16,888 nt of DNA, taken from Candidatus Poribacteria bacterium. GTDB taxonomy: Bacteria > Abyssobacteria > SURF-5. The translations under genes were made by a program, and so were the position numbers. The notes beneath the pieces are model-generated. The model was not told the DNA's origin and made no database searches. It worked only from the letters and a program-made list of their open reading frames with translations. Location of the stretch: positions 1 through 16,888 of the forward strand of contig JACRIR010000187.1 in NCBI GenBank assembly GCA_016215705.1, in the 5' to 3' direction. This document shows positions 724 to 16,483 of this stretch, in pieces. How positions within the stretch are numbered: the first letter of the stretch is position 1; each line of letters opens with the position of its first letter.

Positions 724-1608
724 TCACCGCGTGAGTTTTTGCGGGGCCATCATGTCCTGCCTTTCGATGGCGACGAGCAACTGACCCCAAATTTCGATAA
801 CCTTCGATACGGCTTTGTCGAATACATCCTCACGGAACCTTCCCGTCTTGCCATTTGGCAACCGGACATTCTCAATGAATCGACTTCTTTCGTATGCGGT
901 AATATCTTTGACCCGCTTGTAGGCGAAGTTTTTCTCCTCACGAGCATGTCTGAATAAAGCCCCAGGATCTTCTGCACTACCAATCCTCGACAGAAAATTC
1001 TCATGCCAACCGTCCGGTTGAATATGGTCGAATTTGTCCTCTCCTCCAGGGTGGTTGGCTTTCAATATTTCTGTCCAATAGCTCCGGATGGCAGGGTGTA
1101 TGGCCTCATCGCCGTTCGGGCCCGAACATAGCTTCAGTAACTCCAAATATTCTGAGTATCGAAGCTCAGTCCCTTTGATCTCCTGAAAGATGTAGCTGTC
1201 CTGGATCATTTCGCAATGCTGATGTTCTTTTGAGTTGAAATGATAAGGTCCGACGATGGCGTTGACCATGGGATGAACGATTATGTCGGCGATGACATGG
1301 CTAATAAATCCGCAAAACCAGGAAAGGCAGATCTCGTACTCCTCACCTTTTCGATTGAGAAGGTTAGTGGCGGCAACTTTGAGGAACTCTCCAGTGTTCT
1401 CGTAGTGCATCCGGTCAGCCCAGGTGTGTATTTTGATCATGCCGCTGAGAAGATCGGTGAGATAGGGATAATCCGGGCCCGCAGCCCCCAGGTTGACGAA
1501 ATGATTCTTCCCCAAGATGATGTTGAAATTAAGACCCTTGTGGCCCATTTTTCTGCACTTATCGAGGGCGTCTTCGACGATCATCCAGTGCGTGAAGGTT
1601 CCTGCCAT
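724..1608 (-). CDS. Zinc-dependent phospholipase C family protein
   Basis: This 294-residue protein has the layout of the zinc-dependent phospholipase C/S1-P1 nuclease fold (PF00882 type). It starts MAGTFTHW, then has GAAGPDYPY (D46) and H68. A helix GFISHVIADIIVHP carries H104, D108 and H112, and the HxxxE pair H129/E133 follows. In the family such residues hold a cluster of zinc ions and hydrolyse phosphodiester bonds of phospholipids. No signal peptide is visible, so it would act in the cytoplasm, possibly on the inner membrane face. There are two adjacent ATGs. The one at 1608 lies 5 nt from AGGAGG (1614-1619) and the one at 1611 only 2 nt, so 1608 is preferred. It stands alone, divergent from the regulator gene at 1902. 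A role as a defence effector is inferred from the neighbourhood only; the true substrate is unknown. Confidence 0.75.
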   Translation of the reverse strand: MAGTFTHWMIVEDALDKCRKMGHKGLNFNIILGKNHFVNLGAAGPDYPYLTDLLSGMIKIHTWADRMHYENTGEFLKVAATNLLNRKGEEYEICLSWFCGFISHVIADIIVHPMVNAIVGPYHFNSKEHQHCEMIQDSYIFQEIKGTELRYSEYLELLKLCSGPNGDEAIHPAIRSYWTEILKANHPGGEDKFDHIQPDGWHENFLSRIGSAEDPGALFRHAREEKNFAYKRVKDITAYERSRFIENVRLPNGKTGRFREDVFDKAVSKVIEIWGQLLVAIERQDMMAPQKLTR

Positions 1609-1613
1609 CATGG

Positions 1614-1901: not shown

Positions 1902-3056
1902 ATGACGACTGCGCGGAAAAAGGATTTTAACCGAACCGTTGGTGAACGTATCCGGATAGGCCGGGAGGCGCTCGGGCTTAACCAAAAGCAGCTTTCCGAT
2001 AGTCTGGGATTTAAGGATAGGCAGACAATATCGGCGATCGAAAACGGTCAACGAAAGGTGTCTTCTGCTGAGCTCCTCTCACTCATCACAGTCCTCAAAA
2101 AAGACCTCGAATATTTCACCGATCCATTTCGCCTTGATACGAAGATTTTGTTTAGTTGGCGTGCACAGGCTGCTCCAGAGGATCTTTATGCATTCGAGGA
2201 AAGAGCGAAATCCTGGATCGCGGCCTATTGTGTTCTCGGAGAGGAACTCGGCGAAATCTCAAGTCCTCTGCAATCTCGGCTTGGTTTGACATTCAAGAGT
2301 TCCTTTGAGGATGCGTGGGATGCCGCGGAACGCTTAATCGAGACATGGGGGCTCGGATCACGCCCGGCGCCGGAGTTGGCCCAAGTTGTCGAAAATCAAC
2401 TCGGGATATTGATCCTAAACGTAGAAATGGGAGGTGCCTCTATCTCGGGGGCTGCTTGTCATATACCTGAGTTCAACGCAATACTTGTCAATCGGCGAGA
2501 ACGAGAAGGGCGAAGGAGATTCGACTTTGCCCATGAACTCTTTCATCTCCTCACTTGGCAAACCATGCCCCCAGAGTACATCGATACGGAACAACCGTCG
2601 GGGAGCAAAGCAAAGCGAATAGAGCGGCTCGCGGACAATTTCGCGGGTGCCATCTTGATGCCTCGTGCTGCTATAGAGGAATGTTGGAACCAGAGAGGCG
2701 GTGTGGAAATCCATGAATGGATTCATCGGACAGCGGATGATTTCGGTGTAACCGAGCTAGCTCTCTTCAACCGACTCAGAGCACTCACATTGTTATCGTC
2801 CGCTGAAGCAGCGCGCATCGGTGGAGATGGTTTAACTCCAAAGAGACGAATACCGAATGAGCAAAATATCCCGGTTCTCTTTTCGAAGAGGTTCATGCAA
2901 CGCATCGTGAAGGCCTTGGACAAAGGACTTATTTCGGAGCGCCGTGCCGCCAAGCTCCTGGACCTTTCACCTGAAGAGATGTGGCAGGTTATGGGCACGT
3001 ACGGTCTGCAACCCGCCGACGATCTGATGTCAACCAACGATGCTGAAACGCAATGA
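1902..3056 (+). CDS. XRE-family regulator fused to ImmA/IrrE metallopeptidase
   Basis: This is a 384-residue two-domain protein. Residues ~12-66 form an XRE-type helix-turn-helix (GERIRIGREALGLNQKQLSD, then RQTISAIENGQRKVS). Residues ~150-270 are an ImmA/IrrE (COG2856) peptidase domain with the zinc motif H211-ELF-H215 inside DFAHELFHLL, and downstream acids E241/D245 in ERLADNFAGAILMP. The last ~60 residues (SKRFMQRIVKAL... ISERRAAKLLDLSPEEM) look like a second small helical or HTH-like segment. In this family the peptidase typically cleaves a repressor or partner after a signal, often DNA damage. The start follows GGGAGGGGG at good spacing. The next gene overlaps its 3' end by 17 nt, so the two products are probably a functional pair. 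A dyad at 1838-1859 may be its operator. Confidence 0.85.
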   Translation: MTTARKKDFNRTVGERIRIGREALGLNQKQLSDSLGFKDRQTISAIENGQRKVSSAELLSLITVLKKDLEYFTDPFRLDTKILFSWRAQAAPEDLYAFEERAKSWIAAYCVLGEELGEISSPLQSRLGLTFKSSFEDAWDAAERLIETWGLGSRPAPELAQVVENQLGILILNVEMGGASISGAACHIPEFNAILVNRREREGRRRFDFAHELFHLLTWQTMPPEYIDTEQPSGSKAKRIERLADNFAGAILMPRAAIEECWNQRGGVEIHEWIHRTADDFGVTELALFNRLRALTLLSSAEAARIGGDGLTPKRRIPNEQNIPVLFSKRFMQRIVKALDKGLISERRAAKLLDLSPEEMWQVMGTYGLQPADDLMSTNDAETQ

Positions 3057-3546
3057 CATTGTATTTCTCGATTCCACAGCGATCTTTGAAGCGCACCGTA
3101 CGGGGATTTGGAAGCATTTGATCGTTGCCTTTCGACTTGCGACCGTTGAGAAATGCGTTGAAGAGGCGGACACTGGGAATCTCGTGGGAAATCCGATCCA
3201 GGTTGATACCGCCGAGCTGCGAAAGAGAGCGAGTGTCCACCGCGTTGATGAGAAAACCATTGTTGATGCGATGGTGGCCAGCGATTATCAACTATCGATT
3301 CTCGATGAGGGTGAGAAGGAGTTGCTCGCCTGCGCTTACGGTCAACAGGGCGGGGCCTGGTTTCTTTCCTCCCAGGACAAAGCCTGCTTACGTGTTGGGA
3401 CGAGACTGGGGATGATAGAACGATTTGTTTCGCTCGAAGAAATGGCCAATGTTGCTGGCATCCGTCCCCGAATTCCTTTCAGAACTCATTTCACCAAGAA
3501 GTGGTTATTGGGAATGCGAACCAAGTGCAGGTTGGGGGTGTTATAA
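3040..3546 (+). CDS. PIN-like domain protein (putative toxin RNase)
   Basis: This 168-residue product has the acid pattern of PIN-fold nucleases. D11 follows strand 1 (DIVFLDST), E41/E42 lie in a helix (ATVEKCVEEA), D89/E92 lie in LDEGEKELLACAY, and D113 lies in FLSSQDKACL. The LDEGEKE stretch resembles PIN families such as DUF3368/DUF4411. Pairing of an XRE-COG2856 protein with a PIN toxin is an arrangement described for toxin-antitoxin loci. The ATG lies 17 nt inside the preceding gene with no clear Shine-Dalgarno, which suggests translational coupling to it. The predicted role is metal-dependent cleavage of RNA, held in check by the upstream protein. The C-terminal ~35 residues are basic and not recognisable. 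The PIN assignment rests on motif reading alone. Confidence 0.6.
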   Translation: MLKRNDIVFLDSTAIFEAHRTGIWKHLIVAFRLATVEKCVEEADTGNLVGNPIQVDTAELRKRASVHRVDEKTIVDAMVASDYQLSILDEGEKELLACAYGQQGGAWFLSSQDKACLRVGTRLGMIERFVSLEEMANVAGIRPRIPFRTHFTKKWLLGMRTKCRLGVL

Positions 3547-3682: not shown

Positions 3683-5239
3683 ATGGCCCGACCTAAAAAG
3701 AATAGTGAAAATGGAGCAACCCTCGGATTCGAGGCCAAGCTCTGGGCCGCCGCTGACGCATTGCGCAATAACATGGACGCGGCCGAGTACAAGCATGTCG
3801 TTCTTGGCCTGATCTTCCTCAAATACATATCTGACGCGTTCGAAGCCAAGCATGCCGAACTCGTATCCCAGAAGACTAAGGGTGCTGATCCGGAAGACTC
3901 TGATGAATACAGGGCAACCAGCATCTTCTGGGTCCCGAAGGAGGCGCGTTGGTCACACCTGAAGGCCAGCGCTCCGCAGCCCACCATCGGAACGCTGGTT
4001 GACGATGCAATGAGCGCCATCGAGCGAGACAACCCCTCGCTCAAGGGTGTGCTGCCAAAGGAATACGCCCGTCCCGGCCTCGACAAACAGCGGCTCGGCC
4101 AGATCATCAACCTTGTCAGCGACATCGCTATGGGCAGCACTGCTGATCGCGCGAAAGACACATTAGGCAGGGTTTACGAATACTTCCTCGCGCGGTTTGC
4201 CAGCGCGGAAGGGAAGAGTGGCGGGCAATTCTACACTCCATCGAGCGTGGTGCGGGTGTTGGTGGAGATGCTTGCCCCCTACAAGGGCCGAGTCTACGAT
4301 CCCTGCTGCGGATCGGGCGGCATGTTTGTCCAGAGCGAGAAGTTCATCGAGATCCACAGCGGCAAGCTCGGCGACATCTCCATCTACGGGCAGGAGTCCA
4401 ACTACACCACCTGGCGTCTCGCCAAGATGAACCTCGCCATTCGCGGCATCGACGCCAATCTCGGCGACGGGTCTGCTGACAGCTTTCACCGCGATCTGCA
4501 CCCCGATCTCAAGGCCGACTACGTGCTGGCCAATCCACCCTTCAACGACAGCGATTGGCGGGGGGAACTACTCAAGGACGACAAGCGGTGGGTCTACGGC
4601 ATGCCGCCAGCGGGCAACGCTAACTACGCTTGGGTCCAGCACTTCATCCACCACCTCGCGCCCACGGGTATCGCGGGTTTCGTACTCGCCAACGGCTCCA
4701 TGTCGGCCAACCAATCGGGCGAGGGGGATATCCGCAAGGCAATCATTGAGGCCGACCTCGTAGACTGCATGGTGGCGATGCCTGGACAGCTCTTCTACTC
4801 GACGCAGATCCCGGTCTGCCTTTGGTTCCTCGCTCGCGAACGGAAGAACGGGCGGTTCCGCCATCGTCGATGTGAGACGCTCTTCATCGATGCACGCAAG
4901 ATGGGGACGTTGGTCGACCGCGTCCATCGCGAGCTGACCGACAATGATATCGCGAAGATCGCCGGTACTTACCACGCTTGGCGCGGAGATAGGGGAGCGG
5001 GCGGATACGCCGACGTGCCCGGCTTCTGTAAATCCGCCAAGCTGGACGAAATCCGAAAGCACGGCCACATCCTAACACCCGGCCGCTATGTCGGCGCCGA
5101 GGCAGCCGAGGACAACGGAGAGCCGTTCGACGAGAAGATGCAGCGCTTTGTGGCGCAACTACGCGAACAGCAGGCCGATGCCGCGAAACTCGACGCTGCC
5201 ATCGCCGCCAACTTGAAGGAGCTCGGGTATGACGGGTGA
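3683..5239 (+). CDS. hsdM: Type I restriction-modification methyltransferase subunit HsdM
   Basis: This 518-residue protein has typical HsdM length. The N-terminal helical HsdM_N domain (~residues 14-150, with [20 protein letters not shown] and [16 protein letters not shown]) is followed by an N6-adenine methyltransferase core. Motif I for AdoMet binding is DPCCGSGG at 206-213. The catalytic motif IV is NPPF at 284-287. With HsdS it forms the M2S enzyme that methylates adenine at the bipartite recognition site, and with HsdR the restriction complex. The start follows GGGGGAA. The gene overlaps hsdS by 11 nt and opens the operon. All key motifs are present, so it is probably active. Confidence 0.97.
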
Positions 5240-6602
5240 CTCAGTCACAGTATACAGGCCGCTGCATCTTCCATCGAGATTCGGCGACCTGCCTGTTGGC
5301 TGGTTGTGGATGCGGCTTGATGATGCATGCGACGGCGTATTCGATTGTCCCCACTCAACTCCGAGGTTAGTCGATACCGGCCCATATGTTGTCCGCAGTC
5401 AAGACATAATCACCGGTGTATTCCGAACGGAAAAAGCAGCACGTGTTTCAGAGGAGACCTACAAGGAACGCACGTCGAGAGTTGTTCCTGCGCGGGGTGA
5501 CCTTCTTTACAGTCGCGAAGGAACTTATTTCGGAATTGCGGCTGAGGTGCCGGATCGGACTCGCGTTTGTCTCGGTCAGAGGATGGTTTTGATAAGGCCG
5601 AAATCCAGCGTGGTCGATTTTAAATTTCTATACTATTGGATGAACTCACAAATCATGGCCTCGCATATTCACGGTTATCGTGATGGGACCGTTGCTGAAC
5701 GACTCAATCTGCCGACGATTCGCGCACTTCCCGTTCTTGTCCCGCCGCTTCCCGAACAACGCACCATCGCCCGTATCCTGGGCATGTTGGACGACAAGAT
5801 CGAACTGAACCGGCGGATGAGCGAGACACTGGAAGCGATGGCGCAGGCGCTCTTCAAGTCGTGGTTTGTGGACTTCGACCCCGTCCGCGCCAAAGCCGAA
5901 GGCCGCGACCCCGGTTTCCCCAGAACCCTCGCCGACCTCTTCCCCACCCGTCTCGTGGACTCTGAACTTGGCGAGATTCCGAAGGGGTGGACTATCGGAA
6001 CTATTGGTGATCTTGCAAGCCGCATCATGGAAAAGATCGAAGACCCCACCGACTGGCAGGAAGAATCCTTGATCGACCTGAGCCGCATGCCTCAGAAGTC
6101 GATTGCATTGAATGAATGGGGACTCGGCGCAGAATTGACCACTTCCGTTACTCAATTCAGGGCGAAGGACACACTGTTTGGTGCAATCCGGCCCTATTTC
6201 CATAAGGTAGGTATTGCACCGATAAATGGAGTGACGAATGTCTCGGTGTTTGTACTGCGAGCAAAGCAGGAAGCAGACTGGCCATTTATCGCGATGCTCT
6301 CTTCGATGACCGATACGGTAAATTACGCCACACGCGTGGCGAAGGGTACGAAAATGCCGGTCGTCAGCTGGCCGGATTTTCAGAACTACTCATTTCCGTT
6401 CGCGCCAGCGCATATCCGCGCTGCTTTTTGTCGCATATCCGAGCCGATGCTTGATCGGATCACCAGTAACATCAAAGAATCACATGCGCTCGCTGCTACC
6501 CGCGACACGCTTCTGCCCAAGTTGATTTCCGGTGAGCTACGGATGACTGACACTGACGAATTCATCGGCGTGAGTGGTCTTCATTCTATGAGAGGGGACT
6601 GA
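5229..6602 (+). CDS. hsdS: Type I restriction-modification specificity subunit HsdS
   Basis: This 457-residue protein has the usual two-half layout. Target-recognition domain 1 (~residues 12-170) begins with [16 protein letters not shown] and ends at [14 protein letters not shown]-type residues. The first conserved coiled-coil spacer follows (~180-225, with [19 protein letters not shown] and [14 protein letters not shown]). Domain 2 starts at [16 protein letters not shown] (~250), and the closing helix ends in [16 protein letters not shown]. The two recognition domains differ, so the site should be asymmetric and bipartite; its sequence cannot be read from the protein. About 20 residues after LISGELRM form an unusual tail. 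Its ATG lies inside the hsdM end, giving coupled translation, and a TIR-like gene begins 3 nt after its stop. Confidence 0.95.
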
Positions 6603-6605
6603 ACT

Positions 6606-6995
6606 ATGGCTATTAAAAGAGCATTTATCAGTTTCGATTTCGACCACGACGAGGATCTTCGCAATCTACTGGTTGGCCAGTCAAAGCACCCAGATTCGCC
6701 GTTCGAGATCAAGGACCGCTCACTCAAGGAGCCACTAACGGGAGACTGGAAGGAGAAAGTGCGACGGCGTATGGACAATGTCGATCTCATGATCGTCATT
6801 TGTGGTGAGTTTACACACACAGCGGTTGGCGTCGCGGCAGAGCTCACTATCACGCGCGAGGCGAAGAAGCCGTATTTTCTACTTTGGGGGCGAAATGGTA
6901 AGACCTGCACCAAGCCGACCTCGGCGCTAACTGCGGACAAGATCTACGAGTGGACATGGCCCACCGTGAAATCACTTATCGGAGGCGCGAGGTAG
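6606..6995 (+). CDS. TIR-like (MTH538/ThsB-type) domain protein
   Basis: This 129-residue single-domain protein begins MAIKRAFISFDFDHDEDLR, the strand-and-loop start of MTH538-type TIR-like domains (PF08937 type, as in Thoeris ThsB). DSPFEIKDRSLKEP (30-43), DWKEKVRRRM, the hydrophobic strand VDLMIVICGEFTHTAVGVAAEL (59-80) and the KPYFLLWG strand follow. E79, in the helix after the THT loop, is at the position where TIR NADases carry their catalytic glutamate. Relatives make cyclic ADP-ribose-type signals from NAD on phage infection. Others of this subtype are only binding domains, so activity is inferred. It lies 3 nt after hsdS and 3 nt before a membrane-protein gene, with GAGAGGGG as ribosome-binding site. 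No ThsA-like SIR2/SLOG partner is present. Confidence 0.75.
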   Translation: MAIKRAFISFDFDHDEDLRNLLVGQSKHPDSPFEIKDRSLKEPLTGDWKEKVRRRMDNVDLMIVICGEFTHTAVGVAAELTITREAKKPYFLLWGRNGKTCTKPTSALTADKIYEWTWPTVKSLIGGAR

Positions 6996-6998
6996 GAC

Positions 6999-7489
6999 AT
7001 GGCTGAAAAGCCTCCTTTGAAACTCATTCAGCACACTAAGGAAAGCTACGGAGAGCGATTCACTGAGGATTTGTTCGAGCAGTATAAACTATACATAGCG
7101 TCTGCGGAAAAGATCAGTGAGCGGCGAGTGTCGGCGAACAATTATCTTCTGACTGTTAACGCCTTCCTCGTCACGTTCTATGGGTTGTTGGCCACGAGTC
7201 AGTACAAGGGCTATTGGACGATCCTCGTGCCTGTCGCAGGAATACTGGTCTCGCTGAATTGGCACCGCATTATTACCTCATATCGCGACCTCAATATGGT
7301 GAAATACCAAGTTATTCACGAACTTGAGCGGCACATGCCGGCGGCGCTCTTTGACTATGAATGGGAAAAAGCGGAGGAAGGCAGAGGCAAAGCGTACCAT
7401 CCGCTATCGCATTTAGAAAGGTGGGTTCCTATCATTTTTATGGTTCTCTATGTACTAATTGCTGTCATCGGCGTGCTGGAAAGCGGGTA

Positions 7490-7490
<1 letters not shown>
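6999..7490 (+). CDS. Small three-helix membrane protein (RipA/SLATT-like)
   Basis: This is a 163-residue protein. A soluble amphipathic N-terminus (1-46, [19 protein letters not shown]) precedes hydrophobic helices at ~48-65 ([16 protein letters not shown]) and ~72-86 ([15 protein letters not shown]). A soluble loop follows (~90-140), and then a third helix at 142-161 ([19 protein letters not shown]). The layout resembles small RipA-family octameric membrane proteins and SLATT-type pore effectors associated with nucleotide-signalling defence; this is recognised by shape and short motifs, not by a search. Placed 3 nt after the TIR-like gene, and ending in TAATG so that its stop overlaps the hsdR start by 1 nt, it is best read as the membrane effector partner of the TIR-like protein. 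No signal peptide is needed. The inference of pore formation is untested. Confidence 0.65.
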
Positions 7491-10636
<3,146 letters not shown>

Positions 10637-10669: not shown

Positions 10670-11485
10670 ATGAAGATTCCGTTGTTCAGAGAGGCCAATC
10701 TCGAGCAGTTATGTAACGTTCTCGGCGATACCACAACAGGTTTGACGGGGAGCGAGATCGGTCGGTATCTGCACGAACTTGGCATACATGACCCAATGCC
10801 CGGCATAACTAAACGCGTACGTCTTTACGAAGCACTTGTTGCGAAACAACGAGCGGATGCGTGCGCCAATAACGTCTGCGCCTTTGTTCAACGTGTTATG
10901 AATCCAGTCCTTCATGTTCAGTCACCTGGTTACTTCGAATGCAAGCAGGCTGAGCTCAACCGAGTGATAGCATTTGAAGGTTTCAGGCTAAACGATGAAG
11001 GGAAATTTGAACGGTGCAAACAAGCGAAGACGATCTCAGATGCAGAGGAAGCAGCTGACCGACTGCGTCGGAAGTTACTTGATCGAGGTGTGCATTCGGA
11101 CGTTTTGAGGTTCTGCCGTGCGGAACTCGTTGACGGGAACTACTTTCACGCGGTACTTGAAGCAGCTAAGAGTGTCGCGGAAAAGATAAGAGAAATGACA
11201 GGGCTCACGTCGGATGGATCCGATCTGGTCGATGATGCCTTTGGAATCGGGAAAAAGAAGTATCCTCTTGTTGCCTTTAACGCCCTATCCACCGATTCGG
11301 AACTCAGCGAACACAAAGGACTAGTGAACCTTATGAAAGGATTTTTCGGGACGTTCAGAAACCCTACAGCCCATGCACCGAAAATAGATTGGAAAATAAC
11401 GGAGCAGGACGCTCTCGACATGATGACGCTATCGTCACTATTGCATCGTCGTCTTGATGGAGCAGCGAAAACAGGTGGTGAATGA
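10670..11485 (+). CDS. TIGR02391/Ymh family protein, HEPN-like RNase candidate
   Basis: This is a 271-residue protein. The C-terminal half (from ~150, YFHAVLEAAKSVAEKIRE, to the end) has the signature of the TIGR02391/Hypoth_Ymh family: LMKGFFGTFRNPTAHAP, then ITEQDALDMMTLSSLLHRRL. R230-NPTA-H235 fits the R-x4-6-H motif of HEPN-fold ribonucleases. A residue such as E170 or K168 in the preceding helix could complete a HEPN-like helical pair. The N-terminal ~140 residues (LFREANLEQLCNVLGDTTTGLTGSEI) form a helical domain often seen in front of it. It begins 33 nt after hsdR with a weak ribosome-binding site, overlapping the end of a 10-codon reading frame (10644-10673). Genes of this family recur beside type I R-M systems. 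The role, perhaps a back-up effector, is inferred. Confidence 0.7.
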   Translation: MKIPLFREANLEQLCNVLGDTTTGLTGSEIGRYLHELGIHDPMPGITKRVRLYEALVAKQRADACANNVCAFVQRVMNPVLHVQSPGYFECKQAELNRVIAFEGFRLNDEGKFERCKQAKTISDAEEAADRLRRKLLDRGVHSDVLRFCRAELVDGNYFHAVLEAAKSVAEKIREMTGLTSDGSDLVDDAFGIGKKKYPLVAFNALSTDSELSEHKGLVNLMKGFFGTFRNPTAHAPKIDWKITEQDALDMMTLSSLLHRRLDGAAKTGGE

Positions 11486-11773: not shown

Positions 11774-11787
11774 CTCAGCAGTTGCAC

Positions 11788-11792
11788 GGAGG
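11788..11792 (+). promoter_or_regulatory. Shine-Dalgarno GGAGG that decides the KAP gene start
   Basis: GGAGG is followed by AACG and then ATG at 11797, giving good spacing. A TTG codon at 11782 in the same frame lies before this site and would place it inside the coding sequence, so the ATG is preferred. Confidence 0.75.
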
Positions 11793-11796
11793 AACG

Positions 11797-14700
11797 ATGG
11801 AGCCGACCGAAAGTCGTTGTCCGACTCACCTCATTCCTGATTCTCCCGTCGATAAGGATCTCCTCGGTCCGCATTTCGACGTCGCACGGGCGATCGCCGA
11901 CGTTGTACGTCATGAAGACGGCGGACGGTCTATTGGTCTCTCTGGCAAGTGGGGTTCCGGCAAATCGACGGTCATAAGCCTCCTCAGGAAAGAACTCGGC
12001 GAGTCGTCAGGCCATAAGGTGTGGGTGTTTGATGCCTGGGCTCATGAGGGTGACCCGCTTCGGCGCACCTTCCTTGAGAGCCTTATAGGGTCTCTTCGTG
12101 AGTGGGGATGGATCGACGACATGCTCTGGAAAATACGCACCGAACAGCTTGCTCGGCGTCGTAAGACGAGCGAACAGAAAACATCTCCGCGGCTTTCTAA
12201 CACGGGGTGGGTGATTGGAGCTTGCACGCTTCTGATCCCGATCGGCATGGCGCTATTCGTCAAGAGTCTTTCTGGTGGGTTGACGTTGTCTCGGAATGCT
12301 GGTCCAGCGAACAGGATGGCGCTGTTGGCATTGGCATTGATTCTGAGCCCCGGCATTGTTCTTCTCACGAAATACTCGATCGCCATGGTGCCGTACTGGT
12401 TCGCGACGATAATGGGCAAGTTGGCCAAGAAGCCAGAATTGGGCGACGAACTTGCCATATTCATTCAAAGATCCGTTACGAGAACGCGTACTGAGACCAT
12501 CGAGACACCGGAACCGACATCAATCGAGTTCGAAAGCACTTTCGCTGAGTTGATGGAGGAAGCTCTTAATAATAAAGAGCACAAGATCGTCCTCGTGGTG
12601 GACAATCTCGACCGCGTCGACGCTGCCGAAGCGCTCAAGATCTGGTCAACGCTCCAAACGTTCCTTCAACTCTGTTCCGGTCCCAAAGAGTGGCTCAAGA
12701 GGCTCTGGGTGATCATGACGTTCGACCATGGGTCCATCGTCAAACTTTGGGAGAAAAACGGGCAGATTGAAGAGCGTCCCAGTTCGGCAAACTTCCCGGC
12801 GCATTCACACACTGGTGGCGACCGATATGGCGACGGAGGACTCGCCGCCTCCTTTCTGGACAAGAGTTTCCAGGTCCGCTTCGAAGTGCCGGCTCCTCTC
12901 ATGTCTAACTGGCGGGGATATTTATTTGAGACGCTGAAGCAAGCACTCCCGAAGCACGACGAAGAAGAGTTCCACACCATCTACCGTCTGATGGCAGTTC
13001 GCAGAAAAGATGTGACCAATCCGCCCACACCGCGTGACATCAAGATATTGGCGAATCAGGTCGGCGCTATGCACCGACAACGTGGACATGCTGTTTCGAT
13101 AATTCATATGGCCTACTACGTGCTACTGCGGCGGGACAACATGCGTGTGGCCGAAGGATTAATTCAAGGCACAATCCCCAGCATGAGCGAAGTGGGGTTA
13201 GTGGGAGATGGGGTCGGCGACAGTCTTGCGGCACTTGAGTTCGGTGTCGATAAAGTCAGCGCACGGGAACTGCTTCTGGAAAAACCTATCTTGGACGCAC
13301 TGGGGACAGCCGATGCCAAACGCCTGAAGGAGTTGCAGGAGGTTTCCGAAGGATTTATGGAAGTGCTTGAACACGCCGTCAGTCGGGCCGGAGCCGATTG
13401 GCCCCATGCCGAAGGTGGGAGAATCTTTAACGCCATGGTGGCGCTCAACTACAGTGGGTTGCTCGATGAAACGGAAGCTCTTCGGGCAAATAAGATTCTG
13501 GATGTCCTTCGGGCAGCTGGCCGCGAGATGAGAAACCCCGCTCCGCTCGGAGAAAAGGCCGAGCAAGGGCTTTTCCTTCTCGCTGCCCGCACGAACGATC
13601 CCTCTCTTGCCCGGCACTTGTTCGATGTGTACGCGAACTTCATCAAAAACTACGGTGCAACAATCGGAGATGCTCAGGGTGTTTCCGTCGACGCGGAAAA
13701 GGTAGACAAGCATGGCCGCATAGATCCGTCCTTCGGGTTGAGCAATATCGGTCGCGTTGCGGTCCGCGCGGTCAAACTTGCCCGGCAATTGCATGAGGCC
13801 GGCTTCACTGAGGCGTGTGAAAACGGTGTCCAAATCCCTGGTGATACTGACACTTATGTCAAAGCAATCAGCGTCCTCAGGGAGGAATTGTCGGATGCAC
13901 ACAAAGAGTTTTGGAAAATTATAAGACCCGCAGCAGATTCCGAAAAGGTTGTCCAGTATTTTCAGGACGCCGCAACGAAAGGTTCCTACCGCGAGGATCA
14001 CCTCATCGCCATCCGGGTGCTCAAGAACCACATGGCCCCGGGTTTATGGATCTCGGTCGCCGAATCCGTCCGGGACCGCCTGCAAGCAAGCCAAAATGCA
14101 CAACATGCGGAGGTGGAATCACTTCTTGAAACTCTCCTGGAACTCCGCGACACCTCGAAGGGCAACGAATGTCTGGAAGCACTCGTAAAGGAAGGACACA
14201 TTGCTCACCACATAGCTAATGTTGCGAACGCCAATGACGCGCCGACCTTGGCGCAGTGCGTGTACATCTACATGGATGTCGCGCCTTCGATGGCAACACA
14301 AAAAGCAGTTGGGAATTCAGGACAGGGGTACAAAATCCTAAATCGGTGTCAGTCGAATCCGGAAGATGAATTGACCGAAGAATTGGCGAAGCTACTTGTT
14401 CAACGCAATCGAAAGGAGCTAATCCTCGACGTGAATGACGCAGCTCCAGGTGCGCGTTCGCTCGTAGGAAAAACGCTCGCGGCGATTTTCGAGCAAGATA
14501 ATGACCACGCCTTCTTCTCCCCAGATTTCGTAATCGGGAAATGGAGTCTGATTAGTAAATTTTTCAATGCAGGTAACTTCATAAAAAGTGTTTCGGATGA
14601 TGGTCAACTTTCCCTCCAAGCCGCAGGACGGGGTTTTGATGAAGATCTTGTGGGGCTATATCTCGCGATTGTCGAATCCGGTCCCGATGATGTCGTGTTT

Positions 14701-15333
14701 CGGAAGTGGTGCGTGAAAGAACTTCGGAATGTGGGGGCGGATGCGTGGCGCCAAGAGATTGAGACTCCTGGAATATTGCTTGCGCTGGCGGACGCATGCG
14801 CACGCAAAGGTGTAGGGCCCGCACTTACGAAGCCTTTCCGAGAAGCACTGCTCGCAATTGCCGCCGAACTCGGGTCCAATGACATTGAAACCCCACCGGC
14901 TATCGAGAACATGCCGACGTATATAGACCTACTGGATACGTCGGAGCGGCTTGTCTTTGGTGATAAGCTCTACGAGCTTCTCCAGGGGAATCCCGGTCAG
15001 ATCGGCAAACCGTTTTTTTCGATCTTCGGAAAAGAGATATCACCTGCACGTCTCCTCCGAGATCCTCTTCTCTATACGAAGGTTCTGGAACCAATGGTTG
15101 AGAATCGGAATGCTTCCGGTTTGGAATGGGTCCGCGACCAGATCGCCGCCGAATTGAAGATTTTCACCGATATGCAGATAGAATACCGAGAGGTGTTCGT
15201 ACGACTGCTGAAAAAAGAGCTTCTCGAAGCCCCCGAAGACGAGGCACATATTATCCTTTTTGATATCGCGAGGATACTGAACGTCCACCCTGACGAACCA
15301 GTATCAGCCGGGGAATCATCCTCCGAGAATTAA
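11797..15333 (+). CDS. KAP-family P-loop NTPase with membrane helices
   Basis: This is a large protein of 1178 residues. The N-terminal KAP NTPase domain (PF07693 type) has Walker A GKWGSGKS at 50-57 and the Walker B region IVLVVDNLDR with D269/D272. As in many KAP proteins, a membrane segment is inserted between these motifs: helix ~138-158 (WVIGACTLLIPIGMALF) and helices over ~173-205 (ALLALALILSPGIVLL). A PTPRDIK stretch near 412 marks the later part of the NTPase domain. The remaining ~750 residues are helical, without a family I recognise, and may be a repeat or sensor region. KAP proteins occur in several anti-phage systems as ATP-driven switches at the membrane. Its neighbours are a methyltransferase remnant upstream and a NERD nuclease 157 nt downstream. 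Confidence 0.85.
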   Translation: MEPTESRCPTHLIPDSPVDKDLLGPHFDVARAIADVVRHEDGGRSIGLSGKWGSGKSTVISLLRKELGESSGHKVWVFDAWAHEGDPLRRTFLESLIGSLREWGWIDDMLWKIRTEQLARRRKTSEQKTSPRLSNTGWVIGACTLLIPIGMALFVKSLSGGLTLSRNAGPANRMALLALALILSPGIVLLTKYSIAMVPYWFATIMGKLAKKPELGDELAIFIQRSVTRTRTETIETPEPTSIEFESTFAELMEEALNNKEHKIVLVVDNLDRVDAAEALKIWSTLQTFLQLCSGPKEWLKRLWVIMTFDHGSIVKLWEKNGQIEERPSSANFPAHSHTGGDRYGDGGLAASFLDKSFQVRFEVPAPLMSNWRGYLFETLKQALPKHDEEEFHTIYRLMAVRRKDVTNPPTPRDIKILANQVGAMHRQRGHAVSIIHMAYYVLLRRDNMRVAEGLIQGTIPSMSEVGLVGDGVGDSLAALEFGVDKVSARELLLEKPILDALGTADAKRLKELQEVSEGFMEVLEHAVSRAGADWPHAEGGRIFNAMVALNYSGLLDETEALRANKILDVLRAAGREMRNPAPLGEKAEQGLFLLAARTNDPSLARHLFDVYANFIKNYGATIGDAQGVSVDAEKVDKHGRIDPSFGLSNIGRVAVRAVKLARQLHEAGFTEACENGVQIPGDTDTYVKAISVLREELSDAHKEFWKIIRPAADSEKVVQYFQDAATKGSYREDHLIAIRVLKNHMAPGLWISVAESVRDRLQASQNAQHAEVESLLETLLELRDTSKGNECLEALVKEGHIAHHIANVANANDAPTLAQCVYIYMDVAPSMATQKAVGNSGQGYKILNRCQSNPEDELTEELAKLLVQRNRKELILDVNDAAPGARSLVGKTLAAIFEQDNDHAFFSPDFVIGKWSLISKFFNAGNFIKSVSDDGQLSLQAAGRGFDEDLVGLYLAIVESGPDDVVFRKWCVKELRNVGADAWRQEIETPGILLALADACARKGVGPALTKPFREALLAIAAELGSNDIETPPAIENMPTYIDLLDTSERLVFGDKLYELLQGNPGQIGKPFFSIFGKEISPARLLRDPLLYTKVLEPMVENRNASGLEWVRDQIAAELKIFTDMQIEYREVFVRLLKKELLEAPEDEAHIILFDIARILNVHPDEPVSAGESSSEN

Positions 15334-15490
15334 GCGGGGGAAAAACAACGCTATCCTCAAGATTGAGCGGGATGCGATGGCTTGTATCTTGATTGTGTGC
15401 GTCGCTTAGCTATTCAGATGGAGCAGGGCCAGAAGGTCGTAAAAAAGTCGAGGTCTCCCTACACATCAGCGTTTTTTACAGGAGATGACG
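15334..15490 (+). other. Spacer between KAP and NERD genes, with an inverted repeat
   Basis: TCAAGAT (15357-15363) and ATCTTGA (15386-15392) are perfect inverted copies 22 bases apart, shortly after the KAP stop. No T-run follows, so it is a poor terminator. The rest has an AAAAAAG at 15441-15447 and a TTTTTT just before the ribosome-binding site of the next gene. No coding remnant was recognised. A promoter for the NERD gene could lie here, but none is clear. Confidence 0.35.
15480..15484 (+). promoter_or_regulatory. Shine-Dalgarno AGGAG that decides the NERD gene start
   Basis: AGGAG directly abuts one ATG (15485) and lies 6 nt before another in-frame ATG (15491). Only the second has workable spacing. 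Confidence 0.7.
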
Positions 15491-16483
15491 ATGTTGGTTA
15501 AAGAACGGGATAACCATGTCGCCGATATTGCCGAATTACAACGTCTTCTGGATGGTCAGATTACGGCCAAACAACGGTTTCTTATAGAACGAGAATTAAA
15601 GTGCATCGGCTCCGGCGCGCGGGGGGAGGAGAACTCAGCGTACTATATCGATTTTCGGTACAAGGACAGCTCGAACTGGGCCATTATTCACGATTTAAGG
15701 CTGGAATACAGGGGATTCGTCGCCCAGATCGACCACTTGCTGATCAATCGATTCCTCGAAATATATGTGCTCGAATCCAAAAACTACTATTACGGGATTA
15801 AGATTACCCCTGAAGGTGAATTCCTAGCATGGAACGGCAAGACTCTTGTTGCACTTGAGTCTCCCATCGAACAAAACAAACGCCACATCGATCTTCTGGA
15901 GAAAGTAATCCAGCAGCCCGGATTTTTACCAACGAAACTCGGTTTCATCCTTTCGCCATCATTCCTCAACTATGTCGTGGTGGCACCTAACAGTCGCGTC
16001 GACCGGCCTGCGATGGCCAAGTTCGACACAAGTATGGTGATCAAGGCGGATGCCTTCGTTGCGGCCATCGAAAAAAGACTCGCCAGCACTACACCCGTAG
16101 GGGTTATCTCATCCCTAGCAAAGATGGTCACCCAGGAGACACTTGATACCTTCGCTCGGAGATTGGTTAGGCTTCACAGACCATCACAGATAGATTACGC
16201 GGCAAAATTCGGTGTCAATGTTGTAGGCGCACCTACCTCTAAAGAACATCTTGAGGTTTTGGAGGGACCTGATCAGAAGTCCACTGGTGTCACGCCAATT
16301 CCCAAACCGAAACCCATCGAACCAAATAACGGGGCAAACGCTTCCAGTAGCGATGCCGAAAAGAAGATCGCGTGTGAAAAATGCGGTGCTGCTGTGGACG
16401 CAAAGGTGGTGTTCTTCTGCCGGATGAATAAGAAAAAGTTTGATGGGAAAATATTATGTCGCTCTTGTCAAAAGGCATCATGA
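15491..16483 (+). CDS. NERD-domain nuclease with C-terminal zinc ribbon
   Basis: This is a 330-residue protein. The N-terminal NERD (nuclease-related, PF08378) domain carries the acids of a PD-(D/E)XK nuclease: E46 in GARGEENS, D81 in AQIDHLLI, and E95-S-K97 in VLESKNY. A linker rich in Pro, Asn and Ser (~255-290) leads to a zinc ribbon with C295-EK-C298, C310 and C323-RS-C326, the layout of small nucleic-acid-binding zinc fingers. The predicted role is cutting or processing DNA, with the ribbon giving target binding. NERD proteins with helicase, kinase or zinc-finger partners are frequent in defence islands. The start is at 15491, placed by the ribosome-binding site. It follows the KAP gene by 157 nt on the same strand, so the two could be co-expressed. 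Confidence 0.85.
   Translation: MLVKERDNHVADIAELQRLLDGQITAKQRFLIERELKCIGSGARGEENSAYYIDFRYKDSSNWAIIHDLRLEYRGFVAQIDHLLINRFLEIYVLESKNYYYGIKITPEGEFLAWNGKTLVALESPIEQNKRHIDLLEKVIQQPGFLPTKLGFILSPSFLNYVVVAPNSRVDRPAMAKFDTSMVIKADAFVAAIEKRLASTTPVGVISSLAKMVTQETLDTFARRLVRLHRPSQIDYAAKFGVNVVGAPTSKEHLEVLEGPDQKSTGVTPIPKPKPIEPNNGANASSSDAEKKIACEKCGAAVDAKVVFFCRMNKKKFDGKILCRSCQKAS

Follow-up and report, generated by a model that had tools for sequence, protein, structure and literature searches.

The type I restriction-modification (R-M) operon in the window (the whole stretch of 16,888 nucleotides analyzed here) carries two additional genes between hsdS and hsdR, which encode a ThsB-type TIR protein and a small membrane protein of the 8xMP family. 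We read this pair, with a probability of about 0.55, as a two-component TIR-signalling immune cargo in which the TIR protein makes a signal, the 8xMP protein acts as the membrane effector, and the module serves as a backup in the manner of PrrC. Judged from the gene content and its recurrence in restriction loci of numerous bacterial phyla and of some in the archaea, the pair probably gives these loci an integral second layer of defence against phages. The features of the locus are as follows.

3683..5239 (+): hsdM, methylase subunit of a type I R-M system (Pfam N6_Mtase, 355.6 bits; HsdM_N)
5229..6602 (+): hsdS, type I specificity subunit (Pfam Methylase_S, 50.6 bits)
6606..6995 (+): ThsB-type TIR protein, 129 aa (Pfam ThsB_TIR, AF2, Foldseek)
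6840..6842 (+): codon of Glu79, candidate catalytic glutamate (E in 50/50 homologues)
6999..7490 (+): 8xMP-family membrane protein, 163 aa (Pfam PF24838, AF2, hydropathy)
7490..10636 (+): hsdR, type I restriction subunit (Pfam HSDR_N, SWI2_SNF2, T1RH-like_C; TIGR00348 hsdR, 590 bits)

The Pfam and NCBIfam matches place hsdM, hsdS, and hsdR in one operon, which defines a type I R-M system. The hsdM and hsdS genes overlap by 11 nt, and one of the two target domains of hsdS has no Pfam match. The stop codon of hsdS (TGA, 6600-6602) is followed by the TIR ORF, which runs from ATG at 6606 to TAG at 6993-6995; the membrane protein ORF extends from ATG at 6999 to TAA at 7488-7490, and hsdR starts with ATG at 7490 (TAATG, 1-nt overlap). 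The junctions of 3 nt, 3 nt, and a 1-nt overlap given in the first-pass annotation, which was made from the letters and ORFs of the window, are exact in the sequence.

That annotation had also recognized an MTH538/ThsB-like TIR domain with Glu79 as a candidate catalytic residue, and the TIR assignment was borne out, with Glu79 conserved. The TIR ORF matched Pfam ThsB_TIR (PF08937) with 26.9 bits, over the cut-off of 21.2. A profile of 50 TIR homologues matched, in the PDB, the Bacillus cereus TIR (8fz9), EcThsB (8wcf), ThsB (9b7d and 6lhy), and MTH538 (1eiw). The TIR fold was present in the predicted structure: the AF2 model had a pLDDT of 90.5, and the best Foldseek match was again the TIR of 8fz9 (TM 0.76, top E 8e-8), with further matches to ThsB 9b7d, EcThsB 8wcf, and the SPARTA TIR. 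Glu79 was invariant in 50 of the 50 homologues and aligned with the WVRYE-motif glutamate in ThsB 6lhy/9b7d; in TIR enzymes, the Glu at this position is known as the NADase residue, which makes Glu79 the putative one here. PADLOC gave a weak ThsB match (E 0.011) for the TIR protein, and NCBIfam named neither this protein nor the membrane protein.

The second protein matched Pfam PF24838 8xMP ("octameric membrane protein") over its full length with 130.9 bits against a cut-off of 30. The AF2 model, which is of the monomer, had a pLDDT of 92 and contained helices at residues 21-66, 72-110, 117-124, and 136-162, with hydrophobic segments at about 50-66, 74-92, and 142-160. The model and the hydropathy thus agree with the earlier description of a three-helix membrane protein. 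The parts of helix 1 and helix 2 that reach past the membrane form a predicted helical hairpin. Among 62 homologues, the invariant or nearly invariant residues were Y29, R42, R43, S94, K102, E110, P114, E121, W122, and E140, of which R42, R43, K102, E110, and E121 are the charged ones of the hairpin. Since the conserved residues are located mainly in the hairpin and in the linker to helix 3, they suggest a role in binding or contact, not a bare pore. Two homologues (L086 605-2038 and L101 7543-8973; L numbers denote our loci) have a C-terminal NMT1/THI5-like solute-binding domain fused to 8xMP, suggesting that certain members of the family may detect external ligands. These natural fusions also support a topology in which the C-terminus of 8xMP is presumably outside and the hairpin would be cytoplasmic.

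A fold search of the PDB with the 8xMP model gave nothing significant, a second structural comparison gave generic helical bundles with Z <10, which are meaningless for such folds, and a sequence search of the PDB gave no real match. No ligand-binding domain was recognized in 8xMP, and tblastn of phage records detected no homologue. Our literature search on 8xMP, on TIR with "octameric membrane protein", and on TIR genes within type I R-M operons found nothing; it covered papers other than those in which type III and type IV Thoeris were defined, so a TIR plus transmembrane type of Thoeris may already be described.

The two genes are found together repeatedly. We scanned about 85,000 species genomes for 8xMP and kept the best 80 of 132 relatives; a TIR of the window family was directly upstream in 55 of these 80, mostly within a few bases, and a TIR solely downstream was seen in 1/80. 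In surveys of three other groups, 8xMP above the cut-off was rare (2/299, 2/95, and 4/189 genomes), and five of these eight genes adjoined a TIR. As dozens of genomes have the pair at a conserved spacing, both within hsd operons and elsewhere, chance pairing is excluded, and the pairing noticed in the window is a recurrent one. The distances of TIR and 8xMP correlated (Mantel r 0.49, 54 pairs, 0/5000 permutations as high), with r 0.74 in the hsdR subset. HsdR and 8xMP distances gave r 0.78 for 14 loci, and the test for HsdM against TIR (8 loci) was not significant. For nearly all available relatives dS was saturated, with dN of 0.13-0.34; the sole usable dN/dS was about 0.07 (TIR against L026).

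The number of TIR genes varies. The first-pass annotation called the system minimal, with two proteins; this does not hold everywhere, since two or three TIRs occur in L024-L027, L046, L055, and L069. In L024-L027 and L046, a second, divergent TIR lies directly upstream of the first, with a third TIR in L046; the second TIRs compared (L024-L027) form their own group in the tree and keep the Glu. L114 and L115 (genomes G588 and G516), from a phylum of large genomes, have TIR genes on both sides of 8xMP. Solo 8xMP genes also exist, beside NB-ARC, patatin (L079), or FGE-type genes. A genome of the same family as that of the window (G001) has a solo 8xMP (L008 1456-2001, minus strand) with neither TIR nor hsd genes within 3.4 kb, and L056 has a short 8xMP ORF (7962-8318) in an hsd operon with no TIR, possibly a decaying module or a frameshifted contig.

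The pair is strongly associated with R-M loci. An R-M gene was found within 6.5 kb in 38 of the 55 TIR+8xMP loci but in only 2 of the 25 8xMP loci without TIR (Fisher p 4e-7); both counts are low owing to incomplete contigs, and the p-values are optimistic as the loci are related. When the closest clade was removed, the figures were 16/28 and 1/24 (p 6e-5). The R-M genes were detected with iterated profiles that we built ourselves, not with curated ones. In at least 17 loci of the scan, the pair lies within a type I locus and on one strand with the detected hsdS and hsdR genes; these loci come from metagenome-assembled genomes (MAGs) assigned to Planctomycetes, Gemmatimonadota, Myxococcota, Pseudomonadota, Caldisericota, Chloroflexota, Nitrospirota, and one thaumarchaeon. 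MAG contigs make up most of the loci, and assignments to organisms may be in error, such as that of the thaumarchaeal L047. The back-to-back order hsdS-TIR-8xMP-hsdR of the window was found in L023, L047, and L049, and other type I loci have one or more extra genes in the hsdS-hsdR slot beside the pair.

The module is not tied to type I R-M. In L060, L066, L069, and L091 its neighbours are N6_N4 methylases accompanied by type II or type III partners; in L098 it adjoins a type ISP enzyme, in L045 an Eco57I-like methylase, and in L080 a DUF1156 methylase, and IIG-like methylases are among the neighbours. Furthermore, 17/55 pairs are outside recognizable R-M loci, and dependence on R-M is therefore not obligatory. 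In the case of L053, the neighbour of the pair (5667-7190, minus strand) encodes an N6_N4 DNA methylase fused to two further domains, a LexA-like DNA-binding one and an S24 peptidase, and a neighbour gene in L061 (961-2487, minus strand) clusters with it; an SOS-linked methylase-repressor of this type would be unusual. Genes for HEPN/MNT-like nucleotidyltransferase-substrate-binding proteins recur just before hsdS (L026 1561-1983, L029 3729-4052, L043 1603-2019, L046 3436-3867, and L056 5842-6273), representing a second accessory slot.

The position between hsdS and hsdR is used by other genes as well. In plasmid-borne type I operons related to this one, the slot is empty in Acetobacter (L172 is an example with no slot gene) or contains a SIR2 protein resembling the SIR2 part of ThsA, an FRG-domain protein, a Fic protein, or an ATP-binding protein, and another such operon has a PLD protein and a gene of no known family in the slot. 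The slot genes of the SIR2, FRG, Fic, or ATP-binding kind are as follows.

L171 4642-5667: slot gene
L169 4364-5629: slot gene
L170 4637-5614: slot gene
L174 3217-4626: slot gene

In L026, hsdS is followed by an AAA_13 protein with similarity to PrrC and then by two TIRs and 8xMP. In EcoprrI, prrC itself is located between the hsdS and hsdR genes. PrrC is embedded in this type IC locus and is activated upon inhibition of the R-M enzyme that the locus encodes (PMC12707154). With the PrrC precedent, the varied contents make the slot look like a place where conditional suicide genes and, more generally, accessory cargo can dock. The window pair shares with PrrC its location inside a type I hsd operon; PrrC, however, is an anticodon nuclease, whereas the window pair is predicted to act by TIR signalling.

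The closest comparison for the TIR protein is type IV Thoeris, which consists of a TIR and a caspase-like protease and whose TIR makes N7-cADPR (PMC12847820). The plasmid TIRs closest to that of the window (57-66% identity) are from Rhizobium, Bosea, Methylorubrum, and Sphingomonas, and most are followed by a caspase-family gene, which in Bosea was seen as a profile match. Among the best plasmid TIR matches, 8xMP was found solely in Polaromonas, where it adjoins hsdR. Caspase-paired and 8xMP-paired sequences interleave in the TIR tree, where the starred branches force at least three changes; the tree was made by a quick method from 129 columns and its details are soft. The simplest reading of this interleaving is that the effector was swapped on a common signalling enzyme. 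In L018 (Paenarthrobacter), a TIR-caspase module and a TIR-8xMP module are 1.6 kb apart. The window thus shares with type IV Thoeris the TIR clade and the arrangement of a TIR closely followed by a single gene in the effector position, but the neighbour is 8xMP, not a caspase, and the pair is embedded in an R-M operon. No Peptidase_C14 caspase was found in the same genome (92% completeness). As the caspase is absent, the system is not type IV Thoeris as defined.

Type II Thoeris, with a TIR and a transmembrane-macro ThsA responding to His-ADPR, likewise combines a TIR with a membrane protein; 8xMP differs in that it has no macro domain, is just 163 aa long, and has three predicted transmembrane helices. 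No type I ThsA with SIR2-SLOG (STALD) was found beside the TIR among the window proteins scanned, nor was any ThsA, SLOG, or SAVED receptor, as the first-pass annotation had noted. Because the SIR2-SLOG and transmembrane-macro effectors are absent from the window, the pair is neither type I nor type II Thoeris. It may work like these Thoeris types. The idea of a two-protein signal-and-pore system gains support in its signal-and-effector part, as the sister TIRs pair with caspases in the layout of type IV Thoeris.

The membrane protein had also been called RipA/SLATT-like. SLATT effectors with two transmembrane segments are small, predicted signal-responsive pores, which occur beside TIR and other nucleotide enzymes (Burroughs 2015; PMC7159879). 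The 8xMP pair is similar in having a small membrane protein beside a TIR, but 8xMP forms a Pfam family of its own, its members are predicted to have three transmembrane helices, and the profile link is weak: 2 of the 62 homologues matched SLATT_1 (best E 0.002), and the window protein itself gave no match.

NADase activity, signal identity, 8xMP oligomerization, membrane damage, and trigger, all as we infer them, would combine as follows. Upon infection, the TIR protein would cleave NAD+ by means of Glu79 and so release a small signal molecule, in all likelihood a cADPR isomer like those that the TIRs of type IV Thoeris produce. As effector in place of the caspase, the 8xMP protein would oligomerize in the inner membrane and be activated via its conserved hairpin, and the resulting disruption of the membrane would stop the infection. 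Co-translation with hsdR and the location in a slot shared with PrrC and further putative suicide genes suggest that the module is most likely a backup for when restriction is evaded or inhibited.

Shared transcription with the hsd genes does not prove shared function. It is quite possible, if short of probable, that the pair works as a defence module in its own right, sharing no more than location and transcription with the R-M genes, and that R-M inhibition is no trigger. The pairs with no R-M gene nearby fit such a module, as do the several unrelated R-M types beside the pair, which leave no single R-M protein as a partner; moreover, defence genes cluster generally, and the window holds further defence-like genes. 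Against it, the association with R-M is far stronger than that of 8xMP without TIR, different phyla show the pair at precisely this position between hsdS and hsdR, and PrrC is a precedent in the same kind of locus (PMC12707154). A closer involvement, as a toxin-antitoxin-like or regulatory R-M accessory (for example, in restriction alleviation at the membrane) and not in immune signalling, would account for the tight operon coupling to hsdR and for the correlation of HsdR and 8xMP distances. We consider it very improbable, given that the same pair is found at loci that lack hsd genes or have R-M systems of another type and that its TIR belongs to a caspase-pairing clade.

The order of events could also be reversed, with 8xMP as a membrane sensor or scaffold of phage damage and the TIR as an NAD+-depleting effector. 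Since 8xMP occurs beside NB-ARC, patatin, and FGE-type genes with no TIR, it need not be a TIR effector. The patatin gene of L079 is effector-like, the fusions to NMT1 in L086 and L101 carry a solute-binding domain, and NAD+-depleting TIRs are known effectors (PMC12847820), all of which speak for the reversed order. We nevertheless regard it as unlikely: 8xMP also follows a sensor-type gene (NB-ARC), and the caspase that neighbours TIRs of the same clade is the effector of type IV Thoeris, which puts 8xMP in the effector position. The caspase comparison thus favours the order from TIR to 8xMP. An extended form of our preferred reading, in which TIR-made signal and 8xMP effector constitute a family of R-M guardians, is tentative and, as a whole, rather doubtful. 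TIR+8xMP pairs across bacteria and archaea would then sense anti-restriction or restriction escape in type I, II, and III loci, a TIR-made nucleotide would open an oligomeric pore, and 8xMP and caspase would be interchangeable in responding to one kind of signal.

Other genes, too, mark the window as a defence island. Just upstream of hsdM, a gene for an HTH and M78 metallopeptidase protein (1902-3056, plus strand), which resembles PADLOC RmrA (E 1e-27), is overlapped by a gene for a 168-aa protein (3040-3546, plus strand) with no family match and with PIN-like acidic motifs seen by eye; this gene pair (1902-3546) is a possible RosmerTA-type toxin-antitoxin. At 33 nt past hsdR, a gene at 10670-11485 (plus strand) matches PADLOC PD-Lambda-3_B (E 1e-86) and Hypoth_Ymh and is possibly a further defence gene of the hsd operon. 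It is followed by genes for a KAP-family P-loop NTPase with a PifA/QatA-like N-terminus (11782-15333, plus strand) and a NERD nuclease-related protein (15485-16483, plus strand). A zinc-dependent phospholipase C-type protein (Zn_dep_PLPC) is encoded at 724-1611 (minus strand).

If our reading is true, the oldest known phage defence, restriction-modification, is joined in this locus to nucleotide immune signalling. It would also give a membrane effector role to 8xMP; the Pfam entry name of PF24838 gives neither a function nor a TIR or R-M context. If caspase and 8xMP are exchanged as effectors within a single TIR lineage, whether the effector follows the signal would become directly testable. 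Finally, the principle of PrrC, a suicide gene guarding a restriction enzyme, would be widened from one classic case to a broad class of loci of many phyla.
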